Below are positions 1,489-19,774 of a DNA stretch of 33,872 nt, in pieces (position 1 is the stretch's first letter; each line of letters opens with the position of its first letter). Made by a program: the position numbers and the translations under genes. Origin of the DNA: a virus. The stretch is from the IMG/VR virus record IMGVR_UViG_3300030108_001180, positions 1 through 33,872 of that record; one strand, given 5' to 3'. The notes beneath the pieces are model-generated. The model saw nothing but the letters and a program-made list of their open reading frames with translations. It searched no databases and was not told the origin of the DNA.

Positions 1489-1763
1489 TATTCACCACAT
1501 TTTTTACTAGGGTCATCAACTCTTCTCCAGTCTTCTTTTTCAAACCAGTCTCTAAGTGTAGCTCCTTTTTTACGAGCACCCTTTACATTTGTTTTACTTG
1601 ATCTTTTATACTTACCACTAGCGCCAGCAGATTTTTTAGCACTTACTAATTCTTTTCTTTTCTCAGAAGATAAGCTTCTGATCTTTGCTGCGGGCAAGCA
1701 TGTCTTTGTTGTTCCGCCACCTTTTTGTTTTTTAAAAGGTGAATTAGTTAATTTAAACGCCAT
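1488..1763 (-). CDS. Small basic protein with N-terminal NSPF motif and C-terminal TLRDWF block
   Basis: 91 aa. The N-terminus carries N-S-P-F at residues 7-10, in the same register as two other genes in this cluster. The middle is basic (KRSS, KGARKKG). The C-terminal block GATLRDWFEKEDWRRV (67-82) is followed by DPSKKCGE, with cysteines at 22 and 89. I recall this C-terminal arrangement in small proteins of other marine phages, function unknown. The gene overlaps the upstream PAP2 gene by 11 bases and the downstream gene by one, so translation is probably coupled. No signal peptide or membrane segment. Possibly a virion or DNA-associated protein (inference). Confidence 0.85.
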   Translation of the reverse strand: MAFKLTNSPFKKQKGGGTTKTCLPAAKIRSLSSEKRKELVSAKKSAGASGKYKRSSKTNVKGARKKGATLRDWFEKEDWRRVDDPSKKCGE

Positions 1764-2307
1764 TTGTTTTCTTTTTTAAATGGTTATACATTGCATCGCC
1801 AAGTTCTACACCCATCTTAGAATCAGAAGGATAATGAACTCTACCTACTAATCTACTATTAGAAATATCATCAGCTGCTTTCATAAAATCGTTTTTATAT
1901 TTAGGGTACATTTTACTAAAAGCATTAGCAAATAATCTTGACTGAGCAGAATGTCCTGAAGGATATGATTTAGTTTTAGCTGTGTCCATGTTTACAACTT
2001 TTAAATCCATACCCATACTACCTGCTAAACCTTGAGGTCTAGTTCTACCATGATAGTCTTTTAATTTTCTAATTACTTCGTTACTTTCATTATTTAATTT
2101 AACAAATAAATCATTAGGAAAAGGTAAATTGTTTCTTTTAAAAACATCTTTAAAAACTTTTTCTTGATCATCATTATATTCAACAAACTTTTTATCAATA
2201 GGTATTCTATTAATATCATTTATTTCCTTAAACGTTTCCAATGAATTATCTTTTGGAGGTCGTTTAGCTTTAAACATATCTATATTAAAATCATCAAAGT
2301 ATTCCAT
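1753..2307 (-). CDS. PAP2-superfamily acid phosphatase
   Basis: 184 aa with all three catalytic motifs of the PAP2 / vanadium-haloperoxidase fold in order: K-x6-R-P (K83 to R90-P91), P-S-G-H at 116-119 and S-R-x5-H-x3-D (151-162; R152, H158, D162). These residues bind phosphate and form the phosphohistidine. Unlike PgpB-type lipid phosphatases there are no membrane helices and no signal peptide, so it looks like a soluble cytoplasmic or virion-carried enzyme. The substrate is unknown: a nucleotide, a phospholipid head or undecaprenyl pyrophosphate are options. The N-terminal ~75 residues match nothing I recognise. The gene starts by a TAATG overlap with the upstream gene and lies among NSPF-motif genes in the late operon. 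Confidence 0.85.
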   Translation of the reverse strand: MEYFDDFNIDMFKAKRPPKDNSLETFKEINDINRIPIDKKFVEYNDDQEKVFKDVFKRNNLPFPNDLFVKLNNESNEVIRKLKDYHGRTRPQGLAGSMGMDLKVVNMDTAKTKSYPSGHSAQSRLFANAFSKMYPKYKNDFMKAADDISNSRLVGRVHYPSDSKMGVELGDAMYNHLKKKTNGV

Positions 2308-2861: not shown

Positions 2862-3463
2862 TACTTTTTCTTACCGCCTCCGTATTTGCTTGGTCCACCA
2901 GCTTTAGTACATCTTACACCCCAACCAGAAGCATAAGCACTTGGCCAAACTTTAAACTTACGTTTAGCAGCGGCTTTACAAGGACCACTAATCTTATTTA
3001 ATGGACTGCTAATACCTAACATATTTAAAGCTGACTTCTTTTTTATAGTACCTAGATCAATACCAACTTGACCTTGATAGTCTTGTTGCTTGATAGCTTT
3101 ATCAGTTATTGATTGAGTAGCGTGCATACGTCTTTTTTCAGACTTACTCATTGGCTCTTGTTGTTTGTACAGTGTTACTTTACGTTTCTTAGGTTTATTA
3201 TCTATCTTCATAGATGGTGCTAATTGCCAGCTTTCTATACCTGATCTATCTTGTACTTCTCCGTCATCAGTAGGTATTAATCTTAACTTACCTCTTGTAG
3301 TATCATAGTAGAACTCATTTTTCTCCATGTTATACTCTTTTTCATTGTCTTCAGGAGTTTTATTAGTTCTATCCATGTAACCTTTTTTAAACTCTTTCCA
3401 AGCGTTAGCAGCGGCAATACTATCTGTTTTTTTATCGTGCCCTTCGTTTAGTGGTGATCTCAT
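2861..3463 (-). CDS. Basic protein with SPLN and LAPSMK motifs and a C-terminal WPSAYASGW block
   Basis: 200 aa. SPLN occurs right at the N-terminus (residues 3-6) and again at 153-156. LAPSMK at 81-86 also occurs in the gene at 4332. The C-terminal domain, from the second SPLN on, contains CKAAAKRKFKVWPSAYASGW (162-181) with a second Cys at 185 and ends in a Gly/Lys tail. I recall the KFxVxPSAYAxG signature in small proteins of marine phages and giant viruses, function unknown. The internal SPLN falls exactly before this block, as if two modules each preceded by the motif had been fused. It overlaps the upstream M15 peptidase gene by four bases and the downstream gene by one. Confidence 0.85.
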   Translation of the reverse strand: MRSPLNEGHDKKTDSIAAANAWKEFKKGYMDRTNKTPEDNEKEYNMEKNEFYYDTTRGKLRLIPTDDGEVQDRSGIESWQLAPSMKIDNKPKKRKVTLYKQQEPMSKSEKRRMHATQSITDKAIKQQDYQGQVGIDLGTIKKKSALNMLGISSPLNKISGPCKAAAKRKFKVWPSAYASGWGVRCTKAGGPSKYGGGKKK

Positions 3464-3921
3464 ATTACTTTATATTTAGTTTTACCGCGTTCATCTTTAT
3501 ATGCTTTTAAACAACGGTTTCTGTTATCTTCTTCTGATACGTATGATATATGTACCCAGTTAGGATTCATATCTGTTCCAAACTCCCATATCATTTGATC
3601 AAAATTTAAATTTTCTTTAACCCAATTATACATCTCAGCATTAGTCTTATGACCAAATACATCGTCTATATCAATTGCTTGGCCTTTGCAATGTTGACTG
3701 GTTTTACTTCCACCGATCGCTTTATTAAGTTCAGCTGATCTAAAAAACGAGTTAACTTTTATTGGTCCACCTACAAATTTACGTAGTGGTTCAAATATCT
3801 TTTCTGCAGTTAGCTTCATAACTTCTACTTGTTTAGCCGTAGGTGTATTATCTATACCTTTACGTTTAGCTGTTTGTGAGTGTATTGCTTCTGCGTACGT
3901 TATGTTATCACTTATCTTCAT
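3460..3921 (-). CDS. M15-family peptidase, probable endolysin
   Basis: 153 aa. It probably cuts peptide crosslinks of peptidoglycan for host lysis. Zinc-peptidase landmarks of the M15A type are present: FRSAELNKAIGGSKTSQH with R61 and zinc ligand H77, the G-x-A-x-D-I segment with D84, the catalytic-type E113 in IWEF and the second histidine H124 in WVHISY. The protein is about one domain long with no cell-wall-binding module and no signal peptide, so release would need a holin. The candidate is the one-TM protein at 5295. It overlaps the neighbouring NSPF gene by 14 bases. A virion-associated muralytic role cannot be excluded. Confidence 0.9.
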   Translation of the reverse strand: MKISDNITYAEAIHSQTAKRKGIDNTPTAKQVEVMKLTAEKIFEPLRKFVGGPIKVNSFFRSAELNKAIGGSKTSQHCKGQAIDIDDVFGHKTNAEMYNWVKENLNFDQMIWEFGTDMNPNWVHISYVSEEDNRNRCLKAYKDERGKTKYKVI

Positions 3922-4183
3922 TTTTTCCTAATCTTTTTCTTACAATGTTCATAGTTGTTTTCATTTTCTTAGCATAGCTAGGATTTTTTTGTCTATTAAA
4001 TACAACTTGTTGATTTAAACTACCTATGATCTTTTGTAAATTATTATTTCTAGTCTTCATTAACCAACTAGCTAAAGAACTGGGAGACAACTCCTTAAAT
4101 TTTCCTTTAGCATCTGGTGCGTCAGAGTGTTTAAACGCTCCCATTTTTTTATTAAATGGAGAATTATATTGTTTGTAAGCCAT
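3908..4183 (-). CDS. Small basic protein with N-terminal NSPF motif
   Basis: 91 aa, basic. It starts M-A-Y-K-Q-Y-N-S-P-F, in the same register as the proteins encoded at 1488 and 2307, although the codons differ (AAT TCT CCA TTT here, AAT TCA CCT TTT and AAC TCA CCG TTT there). The rest (about 30-91) is predicted helical: FKELSPSSLASWLMKTRNNN, then a basic stretch with QQVVFNRQKNPSYAKKM. I recall similar helical small proteins in marine phages but no function. Three bases separate its start from the end of the 49-codon gene upstream. A DNA-binding or virion role would be inference. Confidence 0.8.
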   Translation of the reverse strand: MAYKQYNSPFNKKMGAFKHSDAPDAKGKFKELSPSSLASWLMKTRNNNLQKIIGSLNQQVVFNRQKNPSYAKKMKTTMNIVRKRLGKNEDK

Positions 4184-7084: not shown

Positions 7085-10000
7085 TTATGGTTTTTTATAG
7101 TATTGTATAATTCCGTCGTATCTCTTTATTGCTACATAATCTACACCTTCTTTTAGTCCTTTTGGTATACCTTCACTCCAAGAGTTTTTACCTGTAAATG
7201 GTACTCGTTTAGTAAAGCCATCAGCTTTTGCTTTTGTAACACTAACTTTAAATTCTTCTTTTAATTTTTCTTCATTTGCAGCTTCTTGTTCTATTGTACT
7301 TTCTCTACCCCAATAAGGTAAACCAAAGTTCCAACCATTCCAACCTAACAATAAAGCTATTCTTTCAAACGTTCTTACATTTTCATCAGTTGCTTGTCTA
7401 ATATTATTTATTTTTCTAAATAATCTATCAATAGGTATGTTTGTTGCTCCAGATATAATTGAAGATATAGCTATGTAAGCTGGATTATCTAAGCTCCAAC
7501 CTCGTTTTTTTATTTCTGCCATATTCCAGCTAAACGTTCTAAGACCAGTTCTTATATTACGAACTTTTTGATCTATAACCGGTGATATATCAAATAAATT
7601 AAATAAAGCTTCTTCATATTCAGGTGTTTTCTTACCAGCTTGATAATCTAATTCTCTTATAACATTTTTAACTGTAGATATTATTGCTCCACCAAAACCA
7701 AGACCAAACAATATAGAATCAACCATACCATTTATAGTATCAGCTGTTTTGTTTCTATCTTTTTCTTCTTCATCTTCAAATGCTACAGCAAACAACGCTT
7801 GTTGTAAAGAATTAAATATTAAATTTTGCATACCAACATAATATATAACACCAGATAAGTTACTTAAATCACTTTCACGCTGTGTCATGCCTGGCCTTCT
7901 TCTTCTTTTAACTAAATCAAGTAACATTTTCTTAGCCTTTCTGTTATACTGCATTGTAACATTTTGATAAGAAAGTATTACACGACCAAATAAACTAGCT
8001 TGTTGAGAAGATATTTTACTAGGATTACTAGACTGTTGTGTTTCTTCTGCTATAGCATAGAAATCATCAAATGCTTGTTGCTCAGCTTCTGCTTTAGTAT
8101 ATTTTTTACCAGTCTTTTCGTTTATTCTATTTAATAAAGACTTCTGTCTATTCATATAGAAAGTAGCACCACCTGTAGCAATTGCTAAACTATCAAATAT
8201 TCTTGTAAGTACAAAACCTTTATCAAGTAGATATGCTAACATACCTTTAAACCCACCTTTTTGCGCAGCAGCAGCAAGTTCAGCTTCATTAACATTTATC
8301 TTTAATCCATCACGTCTATTTGTAAGATAATCAGAGTTCATTAACTTTAAAACTGTTGGCACGTAATCTTTGCTTAAAAACGCTTTAGCAGCTGCATATA
8401 TATTATTATCACCCCAATTTATAAAGTTTACATTAGATAACATCTGTAATGTACCAGATCTCATATTAAGGAACATCGCTACACCAACAGAACCGTTTAA
8501 CCAGTCCATCATTTCATTAACTTGACGTGATCCACTTCCTGTATATGTAGGTCTATTAGTACCTGTTCGCATACGTTTTAAAGAATCACGCAAAGCTTCT
8601 ACATATTTAGAACCAAAAGCAGCTTCAAGTTTGTTTAAATTCTTCTTAGAAAATATTATATCAACATTGTTTTGCCACTCAGTTAATAATTCTTTTCTAA
8701 ATCCTTTGTCTAAACTACTTAATATATCTGATTTAATATCACCAGCTAACCAATAAGCTCCGGGAGCAGGATATTCTCCTTCTTTTTGTATTTCTTGTAT
8801 TTTATCAGCGAACTGTTGTAGTTCAAAATCAGTACTAACAGCTTCTACTAACGCGTCAATATCTGTTTGAGACATACCAGGTATTTCCATACCTTGTTTA
8901 TTCCATAAATAAACTCTTACAGCTTGTGATTTATTATAAGGTCCAACACCTATATCTTGATTTAATGGGTTTGTAAACATACCCTTTAAACCTTTTTTAT
9001 TTTTTAAAGTAGGAAAAGCTTGTTTCAATGTGTTAAAATCTTTTGCTACATTAATTTTAGCAGATATTAAAGCTTGTTCTGCTTTATTATAAGGTACTAT
9101 TAAATTATCTCTAATCCATTTTTGTTGTCTTGTACCAGCTTCACCTTTACCAACTATATACTGTACTAATCCTAAAAAGTCATCAGCTGAAGCAGTAATA
9201 GTAAGCTGTCTCATTATACGTTTAAAAAACCCTTTATCTTTTTTCTTACCTTCAAGTTTGGCTCTAACGTCAGATATTTCTTCATCAGCTTTAATACCAG
9301 TTTTATCTTCTAATATATCGTTCATTTCTTGATCAAGCCTGGTAGCTTTATCTACTATAGCTTGTTGAACTCTAGATTTAACATCTAACTGATCTAATAT
9401 ATCTTTTACTTGCTGTACGTTTAAGGCTGAATCATCTGCAAAATAAAAATCATTATATCCTTCTGCTGCTTTACCTATAAACCAATCAGCTTTTGCTTGC
9501 GGTGATCCATCTTCTAATGTTATAATATTTTCAATAGGTATGTTTAAACCTATATTATCTAAAAATACTTTAATAGCTCCTTGCGCAGCGTTAGGTCTAG
9601 CTGTAACAACAAATATATCTTTTGGTCCATACTTACCTTGACGTCTTAAAGCTGTACCAGCTAAAGGACCTTTTGATGTAGATAAATCTACATTATCAAA
9701 GTTACTATAATCAAACTCTGCGCCTTGTTCTAATAAACTTTCATACTGTACAGCAAACTCACCTGCTGTTAATTCACCTTTTTTACCATCTGGTAATGTA
9801 TATAGTACTTTTTCTTTTGTCAATGCTAGTGTATCATCTAAATCAAAAGCACTTAAACCTTTACGATCTTTAAATGGATTTAATGCTTTTACCCTAGCTT
9901 TTAATGATTGTAGAAAAGTTTGTTTAACTTTTTTAGTACTATCTTTTTTGTTAATAATATCAGGAGCTAAATTAGCATTGTCTTCAGTAGTTTGTTTTTG

Positions 10001-13000
10001 TTCATTAACTAGAGCTTCAGGACCTCTTTCAACCATAACTAAATTTTTCTGATTGATCGCGCCGTCGTATCTACTAAGATTTTCACCTGTTGTTTTTCTA
10101 CCTAATCCACCTTTTTCTTTAGTAGTATTTAATTTTTCAGCTTCTTGTTTACCTATAATATCTACATAACTTTCATTTAGTATATCTCTAACTTGTTGCT
10201 TAATACTTTCAACATTTACATTAGATTTTAATACTCCTCTAATCTTATCACGTAATACAGATATAGGCGGAGTGTGCTCAAACTCTACAAATTTTTTACC
10301 GTCTAATGTTTTTACGTTATCTTGTATTGACCTTATTTTACCTGCCATACGTAGAGCAGAATCACTAGCATAACCCATTATATCTAATAATTGTACAGCT
10401 ACATCAACTTTACCTGCTTCAACTAAATCACCTATAGTATCTACTATAAAGTTTATTGCATCGTCAGAGTTTTGATCAGATTTAGCTATATTGTTTCTAA
10501 TATACTCTAACGCGCCTTTAAAACCTTTTTTAGTATAAACATTCCGTATATTAGTAGGAGCATTAGATGGTCTTAAAGGCCCAGCGTCTACAATTTTTTT
10601 ACCGTCTAACAAAATAGATCCTCCAGGAGCAGTAAATCCTAATTCACCTAAATCAACACCAAACTCTTTTTGCCAGTAATTAAATGCGTCTTTTGCTTTT
10701 TCGCCTTGCCATAGCTTATGTGTTTTAGAATTTTTTTGAAAAGAAGTATTTATAAATTGGAAAAAGTTTTTCAAAGCTTTTACTTTATTAGCTTTATTTT
10801 TTCCTTTTAATATCTTTTTTATATCTTCAATTTCGCTTTCATTTACATTTTTATATTTATCTAAAGCAACTTCTTCTAATGCAATGTCAACTCTTTGCTG
10901 TACTTTTTCATAGTTATCAAGATCTGCTTCTGTAAGAGAACCTATCTGATCGTCTATAATTTGTTTTTGTTTGTTAGTTACAGCAGTGTAATCTTTTATT
11001 TGTTTAACTACTCTTTTAAGAGCTTGAGCAAATTTTAAACCTTGTTGTAAGCCAGCTTTAATACCTCTCAAAATAAACGCCACAGCATTACCTCCACCTG
11101 GAATAAATTCCATACGCATTTGCCCTGGCTTAGCTTCAAATATTTTAATTCCTTTATCAAGAAGTTTTATTATTTGATCCATGGTTTTAGGAGGCACGGT
11201 TATATCTTTAGTTGTATCTTCTAGTGTTCGCTGATCAAGTCTACCTTCTATTTCATTTAAAAAGTCTAAAGCATTTTGTTTATCGCCTAAAGCTGTTTGC
11301 AGCTTTTGCATAAAATCTTTATCTTGTTTTAACTTATTAATTGAATTTAAAGCAAACTCTTGTGATAATCTTTTTAATAAACCTTCTCTACTTGTTGGAG
11401 TGCTTTTAAAATAGTCTCTTACTTGTTGAACTTGTTCGTCTGTAATATCAGATGGTATTGCAAATACACTTGGTCTTGAATATGTTTTCTTGCCGTCTTT
11501 ATCTGTTTTAACAACTTGAGTATCACCTATATTTTTTATACCTAATATCTTTTGTAGTGGTTTAGACTGTTTTAAAAACGCAGCAGGTAATGCAGCTATA
11601 AAATCTCTGTCAACTGTATTATCTACAAAGTCTTTAAATCCTTTATTAAGTGAGCCTACTTTATCACCTATAATCTTAAATAAACCTCTACCACCTCTAG
11701 CAGTGCTTTGTCCAAATGCTCTAGCTAACGCGCCTGCTATACCTTCAGGACTTTCGCCTTTATTAGCTTCTCTTAATATTTCTTGACTAGTTTGTCTATC
11801 TATTTCACCAGCAGCTTCTTCACCTACAGCTTCAGTAACTTTAGTATTATCAGTCATGTATTTCTTTTCACGCTTACCAACCTCTTGTAATTGATCAGCG
11901 TCAAAATCTGTTTGCTCTGTAGTGTCGCCTATTTGTTGCGTTTTAGGATCAGATATACTTACAGTGTCACCTTGTTGTCTAATATTTCTAGTAGCTACAG
12001 CATTAGCTCTTAAATTAAATAAGTTACTTGTTTGTTTACCAATACCTAAATTGTTAGGATCTTTAGCTTGATTATAACTATCAAATACTTTTACAAACTC
12101 ATTTTTTAATTCTTGTCTAAACTGCTGTGGTGTTGCTAAACTACTTTTTTGATATAATCTTTGAAAAGCATTTTCTATTATACCTGCACCAGCATCTGTA
12201 ATTTGATCAAAACCTTGTTGAGTGCTACTATCTAATTCACCTGCTTCTTGCTTAACTCTTAATCTTTGTAGTTTACTATAATCGTCTTTTTGTTTTTTAT
12301 CTAGTTGATAATCAGCGACTAACTCTTCAGCAGACATCTCATCTTGCTTTTTATTAAAAGCTGTAAAAGGATTTATAACTGGTATACCTGAAAATAAACG
12401 ACCTCTATTGTCTCTTTGTTTTCTTTCAGCTTCTATTCTTTTCGCTTTTTTCTGCGCGTTTCTGTCATTTATTATTATCTCTGTAGCTCTTTTTTGTAAT
12501 AATAATTTTTCTTGTTTTAAAGCATTTTGCAAAGGTACGTTATCACTAGCCATTTCGATTTCTTGATCTAATGAACCTATATCCATTTGCAAGTTCATTA
12601 AATCAAACTTATCTTGTTTAGTCATTGTTGTGCTAGCAACACCCGCTTTATCTCCAAATAAATTTAATGATTTAGCAGAATTAACAACATTAGATAAAGT
12701 CATCATTTGTTGTCTATGTTTATCTGCACTTATAGCGCCTGATGCCAATGCTTCATCAAGTTCTATTTTTGATTTTTTAAAATAATCATTAGCTATTTTA
12801 GCTTTTAACGAATACTTACTATTAGAAGCATAGTTTAAAGCTATTCTAGAAGCAGCTTCTCTAAGAGCAACTCTACTTTGAGTCATTATATCACCGCTAA
12901 AAGGTATAGCAAAACCAGATATAGCACCACCAATACCAGCTTGAAGCGCTTCATCATATTTTATATATTTAGCAGCTCCTTCGCCTGTTTGAATACCTGT

Positions 13001-16000
13001 AGACATCATGCCTAAAACTTCCTGCATATATTCTGTTCCAAACTCTTGTAAAGCGTTTCCACCACGATCTAAAGCATAAGCATATAATCCTCTACCTACA
13101 TCATCAAATGTTCTTTGCCATATGTTAGCCATAGTCATACCTCTCATTGGACTATTTTCAATAATTCTTTGTAGTCCTGATGCTTTTTGAAAGCTTCCTA
13201 CTAATTGTTCTGCACCAAATTTTTCTAATGCTGTTTGAGCAGCAGCTAAAGCAGCTGAGGTAGCTATATTAGCACCATCACCTGATATATAAGCTTCTAT
13301 CATTTTTTCTTTAAACTCATCTTCTACTAAATTAGTTACTTCAGATTCGTTTAATTCTGGATTTTCTTCTTGTATTCTAGCTCTTATACTGTTTTTTAAA
13401 TCTTGACCACCTATATATTCTTCTAATGCTGAGTTATAGTTATCACCATACATTTGTAATCCCATTGCAGCTGTACCTGCATATCCTAACACTGTTGCTA
13501 CTGGAGCTAAAGAAGTACCAGATGTAAAAGGAGCTAAAGCTGTACCTGCAGCAGCCATACCAATATGTGGCAGTGTTTGACCAACTGTTTGAAAAATATC
13601 TTTTAAACTAATACCATCACTGTAATCAGCTCCACCATAAGCTTCTAATCTTTTTGATGATCTAGCCATTTCAGCCATTTGTTTTTCAATTGAGTCTATC
13701 CAATATGTTTTTTTCTCTTTCATATTAGATAATTGCTTTGCAGCTGTTGTGTCACCAAAAAATGCTTCACCGCTAAAACCAAAACCTAAATCAAACTCAT
13801 CAGCTTCTATATTAGTGCTCCATTTTTGAGTTATTTCGTCCCAATATACTTTATCTTCTGGTTTAATATTACCAGATTTTATTTGTTCTTCAAGATCTTT
13901 TATTTTTTTATCTCTATTACGAACCATATATCCACTAAAACTAGCCACAGCTTGATCACCAATAGATGTTGATATACCTTCAACACCAGCTCCAACAGCA
14001 TTTACAGTTTCCATTAACCAATCATAAGGGTTATAATAATCAAAATTATCACCATCATACATCATGTCTACAAATTTAGTAAAACCACTCTGCTGTCTAG
14101 TAAATTTAGCATTGTATTTATTACCAATTTCACCAAAAGCCATACCTATCTCTGTAGCTCTCTTTTTATATTCAGGATCTTTAATTAAATTACCAATTAT
14201 TAATTCGTTTTGTTTGTTTTCTAATTCTAAATTTAATCTTACTATTTCATCTTGACTAGTAGCACTACCTATTAAACCTTGGTATTCTTTTTGTAAAGCA
14301 TCAAGTTCTGGCTTATGTTTTTTAACTAATTCGTCTTGTATAAATCTTATCATAGGATCTTGACCAAGAGCGTCAATATAACCTGAATCAATAATATTTT
14401 GTATTTCAGCTTCACTTTGCTTAACTTTTTCATCATCTGCAGCTATTTCTTCTTCAGTACCAGTAATAGTGCTAGCAGTTCTAACATCTTTAATTAAAGA
14501 ATCTAATTTACTTTGATGAGGTTTTAAATATTGTTCATATTGAGCAAGAGCAAGTGGATTAAAATCTACAGCTAATTTTTGACCTCCTACATATTGAACT
14601 TCTTCATCTGTTGGTTGATAACCTTGTTCATCAAATACAAGTTTTATATACTCATCGTCCATCCAACCATCTTTAATAAAACCTTTTTCTTCCATTGTTT
14701 TATCATAGTTTTCAGAGATTTTATTTTTAGCGTCTTGAAAAAGTTGACTAGTATCTGCATTCATGATACCAAACTCATCTTTTATTAATCCATTTAAAAA
14801 ATCTTCAGAATCAAATCCATATTTTTCACCAAGTAAATCTATTCTTTGCTGGTTTTCAGTAATTAATGCTTGAGCTATATCATCACGCTCAGTAGCGCCT
14901 CCTCTTAATCCTTTAGTTCTACTTTTGTATTGATTAACAATGTTATCTAATTCATGCATTTCTTTATTTATAGCATGTATTTCTTTGAACATATCTACAT
15001 CAGCTTGTGAAAATCTTTGTCTATCTCCACCGACACCTGTTACTAATAATTGTTCATCAGTAAAAATATCTTCAAAGTCTTTAAATGTTCCATCTTCGTT
15101 TAAAAGAACACTAGAATAACCACCAAACAAACCTCTACCTTCTCCATCATTACCTATTTGAAAGGTTGCACCAATTAAATTATCATATTGATCAAAAGCA
15201 TCTTCTATTTCTACTTGTTTAAAAACTTTAAATTCACTAGGTATTTCAGATTTAACTTGATTTATTTGTTCTTGTATTTGATTGTACTCTTCGCTGTTTT
15301 CTTCTAATAAAGCTTGCTGATTTTTTAATTTTTTTATTTCTATAAGACTTTCAGCTGTTAATTTATTTAACAAATTAGGATCATATTCTTCTACCGCTCT
15401 ATCTCTAGAAGCGTTTATCATAGAACTAGTTTTTCCAAGAATATAATTTTTATTAAGATCTGCAAACCTACCATTTGTAAGAAACATATCAGCTGCTTTT
15501 ACTAATCCTGATATTTCAGCGTTTAAAAAGTCTCCAAAACCAGGTCCTTTATCTTGTGTTCCACCTTTATACGTATAATCAAAATTATTTTCATCAAGAT
15601 ATTTTTTCATATCTTCTATAGAAACATTGTTTTGTTCTATATATTCTTCTCCAGCGGTTTTTATAGCTCCTTCTGTTTTATTATACCAAGGTGTATTTTC
15701 TTGTCCCTTATGTTTTATATAACCTTTCTTAATAGCATCTTCTCGTATTCTTTTTTCTTCTTCTTGCGCAGCAGCAATTTCTTTTTGTTGTTGCTCATAG
15801 TCTCTCTTCCTTCTTTTATAATCAGCAATTTTTTTCTCTATTTCTGCCTGAGTCATATAACCAGGATTTTCTTTTTTAAACTTGTCTATATCCTTGTCTC
15901 TAACTCTTATAGACTTGCCGTCTTTAAAAAATCTAGTAACTTTTTCACCTACTATTCGATTATCTGTATTAGCAGTGTTAACTTGATTAGCTTCTTGTTT

Positions 16001-16090
16001 TACTGCGTCTGGATATTCTTGTAAAAATTTTTCAAGTTTATCATCAGGAACACGAAATGCTTTACCATTTGGTAGAACGTATCTAGTCAT
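7085..16090 (-). CDS. Giant (3001 aa) internal/ejection-type virion protein with HAD phosphatase-like domain
   Basis: The N-terminus has two copies of a ~27-residue motif (about 2-28 and 45-75; T-R-x5-G-K-x2-R-V-x-D and K-F-x2-E-x-P). Long helical, Gln/Lys-rich regions follow. Hydrophobic Gly/Ala stretches occur near 830-880, near 1050 and at about 2740-2815. A HAD-like domain lies at about 2075-2250: AFDLDDTLA (D2083, D2085), VTARP with T2163 and FADDS with D2219/D2220. These match HAD motifs I, II and IV, so phosphatase activity is plausible. The last ~450 residues form another conserved-looking helical domain. Size, position after the tail genes and a multi-domain make-up fit an ejected core protein or the 'polyvalent' proteins delivered with phage DNA. 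I saw no N4-like virion RNA polymerase signature. The leader before the ATG is AT-rich with no Shine-Dalgarno. Confidence 0.9.
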   Translation of the reverse strand: MTRYVLPNGKAFRVPDDKLEKFLQEYPDAVKQEANQVNTANTDNRIVGEKVTRFFKDGKSIRVRDKDIDKFKKENPGYMTQAEIEKKIADYKRRKRDYEQQQKEIAAAQEEEKRIREDAIKKGYIKHKGQENTPWYNKTEGAIKTAGEEYIEQNNVSIEDMKKYLDENNFDYTYKGGTQDKGPGFGDFLNAEISGLVKAADMFLTNGRFADLNKNYILGKTSSMINASRDRAVEEYDPNLLNKLTAESLIEIKKLKNQQALLEENSEEYNQIQEQINQVKSEIPSEFKVFKQVEIEDAFDQYDNLIGATFQIGNDGEGRGLFGGYSSVLLNEDGTFKDFEDIFTDEQLLVTGVGGDRQRFSQADVDMFKEIHAINKEMHELDNIVNQYKSRTKGLRGGATERDDIAQALITENQQRIDLLGEKYGFDSEDFLNGLIKDEFGIMNADTSQLFQDAKNKISENYDKTMEEKGFIKDGWMDDEYIKLVFDEQGYQPTDEEVQYVGGQKLAVDFNPLALAQYEQYLKPHQSKLDSLIKDVRTASTITGTEEEIAADDEKVKQSEAEIQNIIDSGYIDALGQDPMIRFIQDELVKKHKPELDALQKEYQGLIGSATSQDEIVRLNLELENKQNELIIGNLIKDPEYKKRATEIGMAFGEIGNKYNAKFTRQQSGFTKFVDMMYDGDNFDYYNPYDWLMETVNAVGAGVEGISTSIGDQAVASFSGYMVRNRDKKIKDLEEQIKSGNIKPEDKVYWDEITQKWSTNIEADEFDLGFGFSGEAFFGDTTAAKQLSNMKEKKTYWIDSIEKQMAEMARSSKRLEAYGGADYSDGISLKDIFQTVGQTLPHIGMAAAGTALAPFTSGTSLAPVATVLGYAGTAAMGLQMYGDNYNSALEEYIGGQDLKNSIRARIQEENPELNESEVTNLVEDEFKEKMIEAYISGDGANIATSAALAAAQTALEKFGAEQLVGSFQKASGLQRIIENSPMRGMTMANIWQRTFDDVGRGLYAYALDRGGNALQEFGTEYMQEVLGMMSTGIQTGEGAAKYIKYDEALQAGIGGAISGFAIPFSGDIMTQSRVALREAASRIALNYASNSKYSLKAKIANDYFKKSKIELDEALASGAISADKHRQQMMTLSNVVNSAKSLNLFGDKAGVASTTMTKQDKFDLMNLQMDIGSLDQEIEMASDNVPLQNALKQEKLLLQKRATEIIINDRNAQKKAKRIEAERKQRDNRGRLFSGIPVINPFTAFNKKQDEMSAEELVADYQLDKKQKDDYSKLQRLRVKQEAGELDSSTQQGFDQITDAGAGIIENAFQRLYQKSSLATPQQFRQELKNEFVKVFDSYNQAKDPNNLGIGKQTSNLFNLRANAVATRNIRQQGDTVSISDPKTQQIGDTTEQTDFDADQLQEVGKREKKYMTDNTKVTEAVGEEAAGEIDRQTSQEILREANKGESPEGIAGALARAFGQSTARGGRGLFKIIGDKVGSLNKGFKDFVDNTVDRDFIAALPAAFLKQSKPLQKILGIKNIGDTQVVKTDKDGKKTYSRPSVFAIPSDITDEQVQQVRDYFKSTPTSREGLLKRLSQEFALNSINKLKQDKDFMQKLQTALGDKQNALDFLNEIEGRLDQRTLEDTTKDITVPPKTMDQIIKLLDKGIKIFEAKPGQMRMEFIPGGGNAVAFILRGIKAGLQQGLKFAQALKRVVKQIKDYTAVTNKQKQIIDDQIGSLTEADLDNYEKVQQRVDIALEEVALDKYKNVNESEIEDIKKILKGKNKANKVKALKNFFQFINTSFQKNSKTHKLWQGEKAKDAFNYWQKEFGVDLGELGFTAPGGSILLDGKKIVDAGPLRPSNAPTNIRNVYTKKGFKGALEYIRNNIAKSDQNSDDAINFIVDTIGDLVEAGKVDVAVQLLDIMGYASDSALRMAGKIRSIQDNVKTLDGKKFVEFEHTPPISVLRDKIRGVLKSNVNVESIKQQVRDILNESYVDIIGKQEAEKLNTTKEKGGLGRKTTGENLSRYDGAINQKNLVMVERGPEALVNEQKQTTEDNANLAPDIINKKDSTKKVKQTFLQSLKARVKALNPFKDRKGLSAFDLDDTLALTKEKVLYTLPDGKKGELTAGEFAVQYESLLEQGAEFDYSNFDNVDLSTSKGPLAGTALRRQGKYGPKDIFVVTARPNAAQGAIKVFLDNIGLNIPIENIITLEDGSPQAKADWFIGKAAEGYNDFYFADDSALNVQQVKDILDQLDVKSRVQQAIVDKATRLDQEMNDILEDKTGIKADEEISDVRAKLEGKKKDKGFFKRIMRQLTITASADDFLGLVQYIVGKGEAGTRQQKWIRDNLIVPYNKAEQALISAKINVAKDFNTLKQAFPTLKNKKGLKGMFTNPLNQDIGVGPYNKSQAVRVYLWNKQGMEIPGMSQTDIDALVEAVSTDFELQQFADKIQEIQKEGEYPAPGAYWLAGDIKSDILSSLDKGFRKELLTEWQNNVDIIFSKKNLNKLEAAFGSKYVEALRDSLKRMRTGTNRPTYTGSGSRQVNEMMDWLNGSVGVAMFLNMRSGTLQMLSNVNFINWGDNNIYAAAKAFLSKDYVPTVLKLMNSDYLTNRRDGLKINVNEAELAAAAQKGGFKGMLAYLLDKGFVLTRIFDSLAIATGGATFYMNRQKSLLNRINEKTGKKYTKAEAEQQAFDDFYAIAEETQQSSNPSKISSQQASLFGRVILSYQNVTMQYNRKAKKMLLDLVKRRRRPGMTQRESDLSNLSGVIYYVGMQNLIFNSLQQALFAVAFEDEEEKDRNKTADTINGMVDSILFGLGFGGAIISTVKNVIRELDYQAGKKTPEYEEALFNLFDISPVIDQKVRNIRTGLRTFSWNMAEIKKRGWSLDNPAYIAISSIISGATNIPIDRLFRKINNIRQATDENVRTFERIALLLGWNGWNFGLPYWGRESTIEQEAANEEKLKEEFKVSVTKAKADGFTKRVPFTGKNSWSEGIPKGLKEGVDYVAIKRYDGIIQYYKKP

Positions 16091-16106: not shown

Positions 16107-17474
16107 TTATTCTCCGGCGTCGTATATTGGATCATTGCCTTCTATAATAAAATCAGTATCTTGATTTGCAAAACCTAAATTACGTATATCAGAGGTACGT
16201 CTATGTTGTTGAAAACTAGATGAATTCATCAATTTAGCTGCATCGTCAACCATATATTGTTTATAATATTTTTTAAAAGCCTCTTGCATTTTAGGAGTTA
16301 TTTCGCCATAATCCCAAGCTGCTCTCATATCTTCAGGTGTTTCAAATCCCATTTCTTTAGCTATTTCATTTTCGTCCCAATCATAAGAGTGCCCAGATAA
16401 AGTCATATTCCATAAAGCAGTCATTTCACCGCTATTTTCTGGTTTTAAATATTCTTCAATTTTTCTTTTTATTTGTATATTAAAAGCTGCGTCATTTGCA
16501 ATTTTATCTTTATCTACTACACCTTCATAACTTAATATTTTTTTACCATTATCATCATAAATATAATATGGTTTAACTCCTTTTAAAAATCTAGACATAT
16601 CAAAATTACCACTATTAGGAACTAAATTGCCTTTATCATCAAATTTAATACCCCCAAAAAGCTGTGTATCAGCATAAACTTCATTTATATCACTAGTAAT
16701 TTCAGGTGTGTCAATAAATAAACTACCACCATTTCTAGTCTGTGATTCTAATCCTTCACTATTAATAGCAAACTCGTATTTACCGCCATCAAACTTCATA
16801 GCTTCTATTTGATCATTAATTTCTTCTTCTGACATAGGTGGTTGAGCATTTTTAAAACTTTCTCTAGCTTTAGCTTCATCAAATTTAAAAACCCACTCAG
16901 TACCACCTGTTTCTTCATTTTTTCTTAAACTATATGAATAACCTGATGCAGGATCAGTACCTGTAGCTCCTTTTAATATATTAGCAGCTAAAAAGTAATT
17001 ACCAGGTTGATTAGGATCAATATTTTTAATATCACTGTAATCTAACTGATCTAACATGTTTTCTGTTAATGTTTTAACTTGAGCTGGTAATTGTAATAGT
17101 TTAGCTAACTCTTCCATATCTGCATCACAAGTACCTTCATCTTGACAAACAGGACTAGGACCTTGTGTACGCATTGTAAGTTCACCTACCGTTTTACCAG
17201 TGCCTTTAAAATATTCACTTATAGCTCCTTTTTCAAATTCACTACCAGTAGAGTTTTGAATAACAGTATTTAAATATTTCTGTGTAGCACCTCTACCTAA
17301 AGCTAATCTTGATTCATTAATTTTTCTTTTTCTTTCGTCTTCAGCTCTTTTTAGTTTATCAGCAGTAGCTTGCTTGTCAGCAATAGTTTTACCAGCTTGA
17401 GTAGCATCTTGTCTTAACTGATCAAAGGCTGATTGTTTAGAAATGTATGTGTATCTTGGACTTGTATATGACAT
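16107..17474 (-). CDS. Probable internal virion / ejection protein, 455 aa
   Basis: 455 aa, mostly helical and acidic, with no signal peptide or membrane segment. The N-terminal third (about 13-75) is a charged coiled coil. A small Cys pair (CQDEGTC) lies near residue 110. The middle contains several Trp/Tyr-rich turns and the end (QHRRTSDIRNLGFANQDTDF) is polar. No family recognised. It lies 3 bases from the 252-aa protein gene and 16 bases from the giant gene, the same place that T7-like phages use for internal core proteins, so a role in the ejection apparatus is the best guess. It could also be a structural protein of the tail knob. Confidence 0.8.
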   Translation of the reverse strand: MSYTSPRYTYISKQSAFDQLRQDATQAGKTIADKQATADKLKRAEDERKRKINESRLALGRGATQKYLNTVIQNSTGSEFEKGAISEYFKGTGKTVGELTMRTQGPSPVCQDEGTCDADMEELAKLLQLPAQVKTLTENMLDQLDYSDIKNIDPNQPGNYFLAANILKGATGTDPASGYSYSLRKNEETGGTEWVFKFDEAKARESFKNAQPPMSEEEINDQIEAMKFDGGKYEFAINSEGLESQTRNGGSLFIDTPEITSDINEVYADTQLFGGIKFDDKGNLVPNSGNFDMSRFLKGVKPYYIYDDNGKKILSYEGVVDKDKIANDAAFNIQIKRKIEEYLKPENSGEMTALWNMTLSGHSYDWDENEIAKEMGFETPEDMRAAWDYGEITPKMQEAFKKYYKQYMVDDAAKLMNSSSFQQHRRTSDIRNLGFANQDTDFIIEGNDPIYDAGE

Positions 17475-17477
17475 AAT

Positions 17478-18236
17478 TTATGTAGATTTTGGAGTAAACG
17501 AGCTAGCTACTGAATTCATAATTCCACCTATAGCTCCTGTAAACGCTGATGTTTGATCTGCAGCTGCTTGTTGAGCCATCATTCTAGCATTATCAAGTTC
17601 AGCAGCTGTTCTATCAATTTTCTGTTGTTGTCTATTTTCTTTTTGCTGGAATACAAACTGTTTACCAGAGACTTCAGCTTGTTGTACTCGTTGAGCTTCA
17701 CTCATTTGTATACCTTCTATTCTAGCTTTTTCAGCAATACGTCTTTGTTCTAAGCTTTCTTCACCTTGTGCTCTTAGTTTTTCATTTGCAACTTCTTGTT
17801 GTTCAATACTAGCAGCAACTTCTTTTTTACTTTGTAAAGCAGCTTGTGCTAAAGCAGTGGCACCACCAGCACCGCTACCGGTTTGCATTAACGCGTCTAA
17901 TGTATTAGCTAATGCCATATCGCTTTGTTCTATTTTTAACTCAGCAGCTTGAGTTGCAACAGATAAATTATTATAAGCATTAGTCATTTCAGCAGATCTA
18001 TCTGTAATCATACCAGATAAATCAGTTATATCTTCGTAAGGATTAATAATAGCTTGACGATTATTTTCTAAAAACTCTAGTTTTCCTTTTAATCTTTGTG
18101 CTTCTCTTTGAGCTCTTCTCTTTGCTCGTTTTGCCGCTGCTCCACCTAATATACCTGAAAGAATACTTCCACCTACACCTATGGCTGCCGCGACGGGATT
18201 AAAGTTAAATGCTGATGCTGCTGATGTTCCTGACAT
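17478..18236 (-). CDS. Internal virion protein-like, Gly/Ala hydrophobic N-terminus plus coiled coil
   Basis: 252 aa. Residues about 12-35 are a Gly/Ala/Ile hydrophobic segment (VAAAIGVGGSILSGILGGAA). They are followed by a long Ala/Gln/Glu-rich coiled coil to about 220 and a second hydrophobic patch near the C-terminus (AFTGAIGGIMNSVASSF). Short-tailed phages use proteins of this build (compare T7 gp14) to form a membrane channel during DNA entry. It is the first of three successive candidate ejection proteins, and the following gene starts 3 bases after its stop. The specific assignment is inference from composition and position; no homologue was searched. Confidence 0.8.
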   Translation of the reverse strand: MSGTSAASAFNFNPVAAAIGVGGSILSGILGGAAAKRAKRRAQREAQRLKGKLEFLENNRQAIINPYEDITDLSGMITDRSAEMTNAYNNLSVATQAAELKIEQSDMALANTLDALMQTGSGAGGATALAQAALQSKKEVAASIEQQEVANEKLRAQGEESLEQRRIAEKARIEGIQMSEAQRVQQAEVSGKQFVFQQKENRQQQKIDRTAAELDNARMMAQQAAADQTSAFTGAIGGIMNSVASSFTPKST

Positions 18237-18238
18237 AA

Positions 18239-19774
18239 TTATTTCATTATAAATTCTGAGCTAACCGAAAATAAAGATTTTGGTCCGCCATTATTAGTTG
18301 TATTATCTGTTTTCATTGTTACTGTAGCAAAATGCCCTTTAATACCCATTGTTTGGTTACCAAATATAACCTCACCGTATATAGGTGATTGAGTATTATT
18401 AGGTACTACAGCGTAGTATTTATTTTGTTTTCTATAGAAACCTGCTCTATATAATATATTATCTTCTGTATAAGCTCCTTCATCATAACTATATATTCTA
18501 TTATAGCTTGTACCACTTGCCGCGCCTGTTTCTAGTCTAACATCACCTGTTGCTACATCAACACCATAGTTTGGAAAATTATCATTACTTAAATATTCAC
18601 CAGGAGGTGTTACAGATAAATCTTTACCTGTTGCGTCAGATTTAAAATCAGTAACTTCCCAACCATTACTACCTTCGTAATTAATAGTTTTAAATGTTTT
18701 TATAAAACTAGGTTGCGGATTAAATATAAACTGTATTGATGAAGGTGTTTTAGTACCATAAAAATTATTTCTATCTTCATTGCTATAGTGTTTATATAAA
18801 AATGAAGTAGTACCTGTAGCTTTAGTAGTATAAAAATCACCTCTTGTGCTAAACATTATATCTGGTTGATAGCTATAAAAACTAGTCCAACCAGCGTTTC
18901 TTTCGTCCCATGTTAATGTTTTATAAGTACCTTCAGCATATCTACCTTCTGGCTGTAATGATATTACATAGTTTTTATTATAAACATCGTAAGCTCCAAG
19001 TATAGCACCGTTTTCACCTATAGCTGATAGTTGATCTCTGAAAAAGTCAGTCATACCAGCTTGTGATATTTCTTGTATGTTAGTGCCGTCCATTTTTAAT
19101 ACGGCATTTTTCTCTTTATCTACAAAATATTTAGTATAACCATACGTAGCAAAAGATTCTGGATTAGTACTGATACCCCAGTTACCTGCAATAGGTGTTA
19201 TTGAACCTAATACTTGATTAACTGTAGTTAATGATCCACCACCTTCAGCACTGTATATCGCGTCTTTATCTATTAAAGCAACGTTACATTTTCTTTCTTG
19301 AAATACTGTTAAATTAGTATCTTCTGCATATAGTTTTTGTATAGAGCCGTTTGATGGATCTACACTTTTAGTAATTTCTTCTGCAACACTAAATTGATTA
19401 GTATTATTTACACCTGTTCTAGAATTATATAAACCAGAATATATCAATGTATTACTTCTTCTTTGCTGTACATCGTTATCTGAAGCTACATACGCTTTAA
19501 CACCAAAATCAACTGTAGTGTTATTATAACCACCTCGTATTCTAGACTCTTCAATCATCCAATCAAAAGTATTATTCTGCTTAATAGGTGTTTCCCAATC
19601 ATAAGCACCAGGAGTAGTCGGAGCGTAATTACTTGACGCGTTTACAGCAGCATTTTGCGGAGGATATGGTATTGGAAAGTCAACCGTTGTCGCGGGGTTA
19701 GTTTGACTACCACTTGCATATATTCTCTTTAAATAAAAGGTATTATGATAATTTACAGGTATACTTATAGCCAT
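18239..19774 (-). CDS. Tail hub / stabilisation-type structural protein, 511 aa
   Basis: 511 aa, beta-rich. The region 154-248 contains NLTVFQERKCNVALIDKDAI, then NWGISTNPESFATYGYTKYF, then AVLKMDG and a MTDFFRDQ end. I recall this run from the 'stabilisation' or tail-hub proteins of crAss-like and related marine phages, where it forms part of a propeller-like beta fold. The first ~110 residues contain FDWMIEESRIRGGYNN, also typical of these proteins. The C-terminal half is Tyr/Asn-rich. It follows the 1546-aa tail protein after a 32-base AT-rich spacer. It probably sits in the short tail below the connector. The family call is recall-based and moderate. Confidence 0.75.
   Translation of the reverse strand: MAISIPVNYHNTFYLKRIYASGSQTNPATTVDFPIPYPPQNAAVNASSNYAPTTPGAYDWETPIKQNNTFDWMIEESRIRGGYNNTTVDFGVKAYVASDNDVQQRRSNTLIYSGLYNSRTGVNNTNQFSVAEEITKSVDPSNGSIQKLYAEDTNLTVFQERKCNVALIDKDAIYSAEGGGSLTTVNQVLGSITPIAGNWGISTNPESFATYGYTKYFVDKEKNAVLKMDGTNIQEISQAGMTDFFRDQLSAIGENGAILGAYDVYNKNYVISLQPEGRYAEGTYKTLTWDERNAGWTSFYSYQPDIMFSTRGDFYTTKATGTTSFLYKHYSNEDRNNFYGTKTPSSIQFIFNPQPSFIKTFKTINYEGSNGWEVTDFKSDATGKDLSVTPPGEYLSNDNFPNYGVDVATGDVRLETGAASGTSYNRIYSYDEGAYTEDNILYRAGFYRKQNKYYAVVPNNTQSPIYGEVIFGNQTMGIKGHFATVTMKTDNTTNNGGPKSLFSVSSEFIMK

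Follow-up and report, generated by a model that had tools for sequence, protein, structure and literature searches.

Gene neighbourhood of a 3001-aa protein

The window (the whole 33,872-nucleotide stretch of viral DNA analysed here) carries a cluster of genes dominated by one very large reading frame, which we described together with its neighbours as follows.

7085..16090, minus strand: gene for a giant ejection-type (polyvalent-like) protein of 3001 aa, recognised as an ORF with an ATG start and by its relatives
16107..17474, minus strand: protein of 455 aa, assigned by position only to the central, gp15-like place in the ejection cluster
17478..18236, minus strand: 252-aa small internal virion protein in the gp14-like slot, placed by homology to phi40:1 gp99 and Gundel_1 gp72
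18239..19774, minus strand: 511-aa protein with a crAss muzzle C-terminal domain (PF25729)

The 3001-aa frame proposed from the letters alone proved to be real, and 549 relatives of its product were detected in one scan, the full-length ones ranging from 2055 to 3353 aa. Searches of Pfam, PHROGs and NCBIfam with the whole window protein returned only noise, and neither full-length tblastn nor blastn of the middle 5 kb found a match among phage records. The 13 matches in genome_contigs were to MAG contigs shorter than 43 kb, probably misbinned phage, and an origin in a host genome was discarded. The phage, a marine podovirus, is related to both Crassvirales and flavobacterial phages, and its hosts are probably Bacteroidetes bacteria.

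In phage T7, the small, mid-size and giant proteins gp14, gp15 and gp16 occupy a comparable slot and are expected to be ejected with the DNA. Judging from gene order and homology, the giant gene of the window occupies such a gp14-15-16-like slot, in the place of gp16. In the window, as in gp97-101 of Cellulophaga phage phi40:1, which are annotated as structural from MS/MS, the muzzle is followed by a small membrane-segment protein, a mid-size protein and the giant. The 252-aa protein, with one predicted membrane segment (residues 15-33), is homologous to phi40:1 gp99, structural by MS/MS, and to Tenacibaculum phage Gundel_1 gp72 (E 5e-8 and 1e-10), while the 455-aa protein matched no reference-phage protein. 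Giants in comparable clusters are Gundel_1 gp74 (which has an HExxH motif), phi40:1 gp101 (also annotated as structural from MS/MS) and Flavobacterium phage elemo gp18 (annotated with DUF3293), all three without the phosphatase domain described below. The identical slot after the muzzle is filled in crAss001 by gp45, gp46 and gp47, again small membrane-segment, mid-size and giant proteins, which are cargo proteins, likewise expected to leave with the DNA, detected in virions by mass spectrometry in a study that mentions no phosphatase among them (PMC10172136). However, gp47 has no sequence homology to the window giant protein, and the crAss001 PNK and phosphatase are separate genes (gp60 and gp61) outside the virion cluster.

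The sequence-only reading had described an ejection-like protein with hydrophobic segments. Gene order and homology give good support to the prediction of an ejection-type virion protein, but the several segments came down to one strong stretch, residues 2789-2811. This single strong hydrophobic segment in the whole giant protein favours the view that it does not reach the cytoplasm by ejection, or is no part of the virion, and hence that there is no time-zero enzyme. We regard this as quite improbable, given the ejection-slot position of the gene, the MS/MS-verified homologue of its 252-aa neighbour, the presence of the crAss001 proteins of the same slot in virions, and a C-terminal homology to the Gundel_1 giant.

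Architecture of the giant protein and its HAD domain

Along the protein, from its N-terminus, we distinguished the following parts.

9941..16090, minus strand: N-terminal region, residues 1-2050, poorly conserved (conservation profile, HExxH scan)
10001..10513, minus strand: 'EH' module, about residues 1860-2030, with an invariant E-H pair (E1938-H1939) and an Arg
9305..9862, minus strand: predicted HAD phosphatase domain, T4-Pnkp-like, about residues 2077-2262 (motifs, conservation, predicted fold)
9830..9847, minus strand: HAD motif I FDLDDT, residues 2082-2087, with nucleophile D2083 and acid/base D2085
9593..9607, minus strand: HAD motif II VTARP, residues 2162-2166
9491..9493, minus strand: HAD motif III lysine K2200 (alignment)
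9431..9442, minus strand: HAD motif IV FADD, residues 2217-2220
7241..9304, minus strand: C-terminal block, residues 2263-2950, conserved and mostly helical (Gundel_1 gp74 homology, predicted fold), enclosing the hydrophobic stretch

Most relatives carry a zincin-like HExxH...E metallopeptidase domain in the N-terminal region. In the HExxH scan it was absent from the window protein and from the clade close to that protein, and a peptidase HMM did not match the window protein, in which the HAD is the sole recognised enzyme domain. The EH module was found in HAD-bearing and HAD-less relatives alike, and a PDB search with it gave no credible match. Profile matches of the N-terminal region to the elemo and phi40:1 giants were set aside for their very high composition bias. 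At the other end, the C-terminal block shares homology with the last part of Gundel_1 gp74 (E 2e-12), annotated as 'structural protein', and its predicted fold resembles large polyvalent and virion proteins, including predicted structures annotated LPD/PolyVal. LPD/PolyVal Pfam domains had no sequence match in the giant protein, and sequence comparison of the block with the giants of phi40:1, elemo and crAss001 detected no homology.

The motifs FDLDDT, VTARP and FADD lie where the sequence-only reading had placed them, and the motif III lysine missing from its list is K2200, in EDGSPQAKADW. The complete ordered set occurs once in the 3001-aa protein, and none of 5000 shuffles contained it. In an alignment of 81 sequences (the window protein and 80 metagenomic relatives), D2083, T2163, A2164, R2165, K2200, D2219 and D2220 were invariant, and D2085 and D2086 were missing in a single row (L036), apparently frameshifted. 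The HAD domain is under strong purifying selection, with dN/dS of 0.04-0.17, usually the lowest value within the giant protein, and in the conservation profile it forms, together with the C-terminal block, the best-conserved part.

The proposed HAD fold was supported by AlphaFold modelling, which returned the HAD order of strands and helices as well as HAD structural matches; motifs I-IV in order and a Rossmann-like predicted fold place the domain in the HAD superfamily. A first model of the HAD only was weaker, with poor Foldseek E-values (best 0.014), and the Pnkp matches were clearer from a larger model (residues 2050-3001) including the C-terminal block. For the latter, the three best PDB matches all lay on the HAD and were Pnkp1 (4xru, Z 10.8) and T4 PNK (1ltq, Z 10.5; 2ia5, Z 10.1), the next family reaching Z 9.0 (985 chains aligned). 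Moreover, phrog_415, 'polynucleotide kinase', matched 43 of 49 members (best E 1e-8). A sequence search of the PDB with the HAD gave no match, T4 PseT was not matched significantly over its full length, and hhalign of the two aligned only motif I (probability 35%). The link to T4 Pnkp comes from the predicted structure and the PHROG match. The domain is like T4 PseT and bacterial Pnkp1 in predicted fold and in the four HAD motifs, and, like T4 Pnkp, has an invariant Arg at the second position past the motif II Thr/Ser (SGR in T4, TAR here), but it differs from them in being embedded in a giant virion-type protein.

A nested kinase, and gain and loss of the HAD module

The spacing between motifs I and II in the window protein is 80, and a 5'-kinase domain is absent from it. 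In 9 relatives the HAD cap encloses a nested P-loop kinase, and the two together make a kinase-phosphatase like Pnkp; T4 PseT and Pnkp1 make the same pairing, but their kinase is N-terminal. The PF13671 assignment of the nested kinase was tested in two of the 9 records and in the L114 sequence. Its best PDB matches were the 'Metallophosphoesterase' set 4gp7, 4jst and 4mde (E 0.0015), which we take to be the Clostridium thermocellum Pnkp kinase domain, and it also matched phrog_505 polynucleotide kinase (1e-12) and, below that model's cut-off, TIGR04075 bacter_Pnkp (9e-4). A match to Zeta_toxin (3e-12) means that it could instead be a zeta-type small-molecule kinase.

This resemblance bears on what a virion-delivered HAD would act on. 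HAD enzymes are promiscuous, and the best Pfam family of the domain, DUF2608, has no assigned substrate, as would suit an enzyme of small phosphates (dNMP/NMP, defence nucleotide signals or sugar phosphates) rather than of polynucleotide ends. The idea of an RNA-ligase partner for the HAD was set aside, as PF09414 had no match in the HAD-bearing records, which are fragments, the two sub-cut-off matches both lying in HAD-less records; this too was counted for small phosphates, as was the prediction of nucleotide-targeting domains in polyvalent proteins by the paper defining them (Iyer, Burroughs et al. 2017, PMC5512222), in whose main text 'phosphatase' has 0 occurrences. Against small phosphates stand the three best structural matches, all T4-type Pnkp phosphatases, the PHROG polynucleotide kinase match, and the union of kinase and phosphatase in one polypeptide, as in Pnkp. 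We consider action on small phosphates rather unlikely. Among the substrates proposed by the sequence-only reading (nucleotides, sugar phosphates and polynucleotide ends), polynucleotide ends are favoured by the PHROG match, by a fold like that of T4 Pnkp and by the kinase nested in some relatives.

The window protein family resembles phage polyvalent proteins in its very large multidomain product adjoining virion genes, in the zincin-like HExxH...E peptidase of most relatives and in swappable enzyme modules. Of the at least two disparate activities of polyvalent proteins, most relatives would have HAD and HExxH and 9 have HAD and kinase, whereas the window protein has the HAD only. The literature covered, which took in few subscription journals, yielded no account of an ejection or polyvalent protein of a phage with a HAD domain. 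A search for further relatives of one standalone HAD (L181) found none, and phage records held at most one distant relative of free-standing HADs.

The HAD is missing precisely from about 10 relatives, and across relatives the module appears to have been repeatedly lost or gained. Since some relatives lack it, it would be dispensable for ejection. Internal virion proteins are made late, at assembly time, and the HAD adjoins the C-terminal block, the two together being better conserved than the rest of the protein; both points speak for a HAD that acts in the producing cell or in assembly (e.g. by removing nucleotides or phosphate ends as DNA is packaged), or that is a structural or folding module, ejection being incidental. 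This we find improbable, because all HAD catalytic residues are kept, making a purely structural role unlikely, and the repeated loss or gain indicates that the module is unnecessary for assembly.

A possible end-healing enzyme carried in by the virion

The explanation that we prefer, though tentatively and with somewhat less than even confidence, is a virion-packaged, ejected giant protein whose T4-Pnkp-type HAD heals nucleic-acid ends by 3'-phosphate removal. Its basis in sequence and modelling comprises gene position, homology, HAD fold, motifs, selection, module gain and loss, and the nested kinase; packaging in the window phage, delivery, activity and substrate are what we infer. The giant protein would be packaged in the virion of a short-tailed phage and leave it before or together with the DNA, with the HAD module, catalytically intact as judged by its motifs, sitting just ahead of the conserved helical C-terminal block. 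After entry, the HAD would most likely strip 3'-phosphates, or related terminal phosphates, from the ends of the incoming genome or of host RNA cut by defence nucleases, and the cleaned ends would become usable by polymerases or ligases.

Delivery of the enzyme at time zero is a plausible inference, and a role in counter-defence is possible. That an end-healing enzyme inside the ejection protein (a 3'-phosphatase, in some lineages a nested kinase-phosphatase) starts mending cleaved phage DNA or host tRNA ahead of phage gene expression, as a time-zero counter-defence, we consider doubtful, if worth entertaining. Free-standing HADs in a large-genome phage may follow a separate delivery route, with a capsid-targeting-like leader.

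A conserved HAD shaped like end-repair enzymes within an ejection-type protein suggests that the phage may carry in a repair tool. Uncultured marine phages in their hundreds appear to have an ejection protein with an intact phosphatase. Should this phosphatase heal nucleic-acid ends, a repair activity would be delivered ahead of phage transcription, and such early end repair, if true, could account for the survival of the infection when nucleases attack early.

Fold and family of the HAD domain

The giant ORF (7085-16090, minus strand, ATG start) encodes a protein of 3001 aa, in which the FDLDDT, VTARP and FADD motifs lie exactly where the sequence-only reading had placed them; the remaining HAD motif, K2200, was likewise found. 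The ordered motif set arose in 0 of 5,000 shuffled versions of the protein, and 549 of the 558 pattern matches on viral contigs encoded a relative. When the HADs of the window protein and 80 relatives were aligned, the Asp, Thr, Arg, Lys and Asp-Asp of the catalytic motifs were invariant, except in one apparently frameshifted row (locus L036) in which part of motif I was missing.

The proposed HAD fold was also borne out by AlphaFold, whose models matched Pnkp structures of HAD type. The pLDDT was 75 for the HAD alone and 74 for residues 2050-3001, with the HAD portion mostly around 80. The best VIA-align matches of the longer model were the Pnkp structures 4xru (Z 10.8), 1ltq (10.5) and 2ia5 (10.1), which superposed on about 120 residues of the HAD at 2.4-2.9 Å; a Nir2 domain ranked next (Z 9.0). 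The PHROG 'polynucleotide kinase' family matched 43 of 49 HAD members, Pfam returned DUF2608 and generic HAD families, and the direct alignment with T4 PseT covered motif I only. Taken together, these comparisons make the fold assignment firm and a Pnkp type likely.

Nine relatives (L114, L115, L117, L118, L126, L134, L151, L176 and L177) carry a P-loop kinase inserted in the HAD cap, which widens the motif I-II spacing to about 280 residues, versus 80 otherwise. This nested kinase scored well over the cut-off of PF13671 and also matched the phrog_505 polynucleotide kinase. Its top PDB matches (4gp7, 4jst and 4mde; E 0.0015) are titled 'Metallophosphoesterase' and represent the Clostridium thermocellum Pnkp kinase domain. 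The match to the bacterial Pnkp model TIGR04075 (9e-4) was far under that model's cut-off, and a zeta-toxin-like small-molecule kinase is a possible alternative. On the tree of the helical C-terminal block (residues 2263-2950, directly after the HAD), the kinase label required at least 3 changes.

Conservation, gain and loss of the HAD module

Among 65 full-length relatives (2055-3353 aa), conservation was weak over residues 1-2050 and strong over residues 2060-2950, that is, the HAD and the C-terminal block. The dN/dS was 0.04-0.17 for the HAD, 0.06-0.24 for the C-terminal block and 0.18-0.45 for the N-terminal part, the latter from the only pairs close enough for measurement there. This conservation and the low dN/dS argue that the HAD is retained for its chemistry and is no relic.

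With the C-terminal block as query, 80 loci were scanned for the HAD, which lay within the same ORF in 67 and in the neighbouring upstream ORF in 2; one locus was truncated, and the remaining 10 had no HAD in the locus. Whole-record inspection of six HAD-less cases revealed none anywhere. In HAD-less proteins, the start of the C-terminal block is directly abutted by the following module:

10001-10513 (residues about 1860-2030): 'EH' module, upstream of the HAD, with an invariant Glu-His pair and an Arg

Such a direct junction points to a clean insertion or deletion of the HAD, whose absence required 3 to 5 changes on the C-terminal-block tree. The 'EH' module is itself conserved in HAD-less relatives and gave neither a Pfam match nor a credible PDB match. 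L130 and L139 have a split giant gene, the break falling exactly between the HAD, which ends an ORF of 2070 or 2326 aa, and the C-terminal block, a separate ORF of 661 or 627 aa.

Predicted ejection-protein context

The window encodes, in order, a TerL-like ORF, portal, MCP, ring/tail proteins, a crAss-type muzzle (PF25729) and proteins of 252, 455 and 3001 aa. Portal and MCP were nearest to those of Manatee Spring, Maribacter Panino, Flavobacterium elemo and Cellulophaga phages, and the syntenic gp97-101 of Cellulophaga phi40:1 carry structural annotation from MS/MS. The 252-aa neighbour has one membrane segment and is homologous to phi40:1 gp99 (5e-8) and Tenacibaculum Gundel_1 gp72 (1e-10). 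Gundel_1 gp74 is a homologue of the C-terminal block (2e-12) and carries the label 'structural protein', for which the consulted text of the Gundel paper gives no basis. Among the BFVD matches of the block are proteins annotated LPD/PolyVal and a structural protein of elemo. Mass spectrometry has detected the crAss001 cargo proteins of this genomic slot in virions (PMC10172136). Gene order and homologues mark the giant protein of the window as a predicted ejection protein. In Panino (L084, 13229-18718), the slot holds a 1829-aa protein annotated 'tRNA methyltransferase', which Pfam did not confirm.

Listed here are two late-cluster genes, located downstream of the giant gene, and three small late proteins:

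1753-2307, minus strand: PAP2-type phosphatase (E 8.5e-8), late cluster
3460-3921, minus strand: peptidase M15 lysin (6e-18), late cluster
1488-1763, 2307-2861 and 3908-4183, minus strand: small late proteins, one at each position, that share the N-terminal peptide MA[FY]K[LQ]xNSPF

This peptide, possibly a targeting or assembly tag, begins three ORFs in the related locus L001 as well, and one or none in more distant relatives. Separately, L205 (1727-4552, from a 177-kb viral contig) and L179 (1563-3668) contain several genes side by side: two ART-like genes, one unknown and a free-standing HAD of this type. All begin with a near-identical 10-residue leader (MIKLKDLLKE-like, ending LxE). This leader recalls the capsid-targeting sequence of T4 with its cleavage site, which suggests that these HADs may be packaged too.

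Novelty and proposed working

Most of 66 aligned full-length proteins have an HExxH motif with a glutamate downstream in the alignment, resembling the zincin-like peptidases of polyvalent proteins (large, injected multi-enzyme phage proteins); this peptidase domain is missing from the window protein and from the relatives nearest to it. The main text of the defining paper describes many enzyme domains, with HAD phosphatase absent ('phosphatase', 0 occurrences; PMC5512222), and a jumbo-phage survey places RNA-repair HAD phosphatases in phages as standalone or kinase-fused proteins (PMC7824862). An HAD inside an ejection protein therefore appears to be a new arrangement, as judged from the main texts of the papers searched.

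No PF09414 RNA ligase was found in the HAD-bearing records, which are fragments. We infer that the giant protein would enter the cell with the DNA after ejection and that its HAD would probably strip terminal phosphates off nucleic-acid ends. Such an activity could make nicks and ends of the incoming DNA ready for host polymerase and ligase, or it could heal RNA cleaved by defence nucleases.
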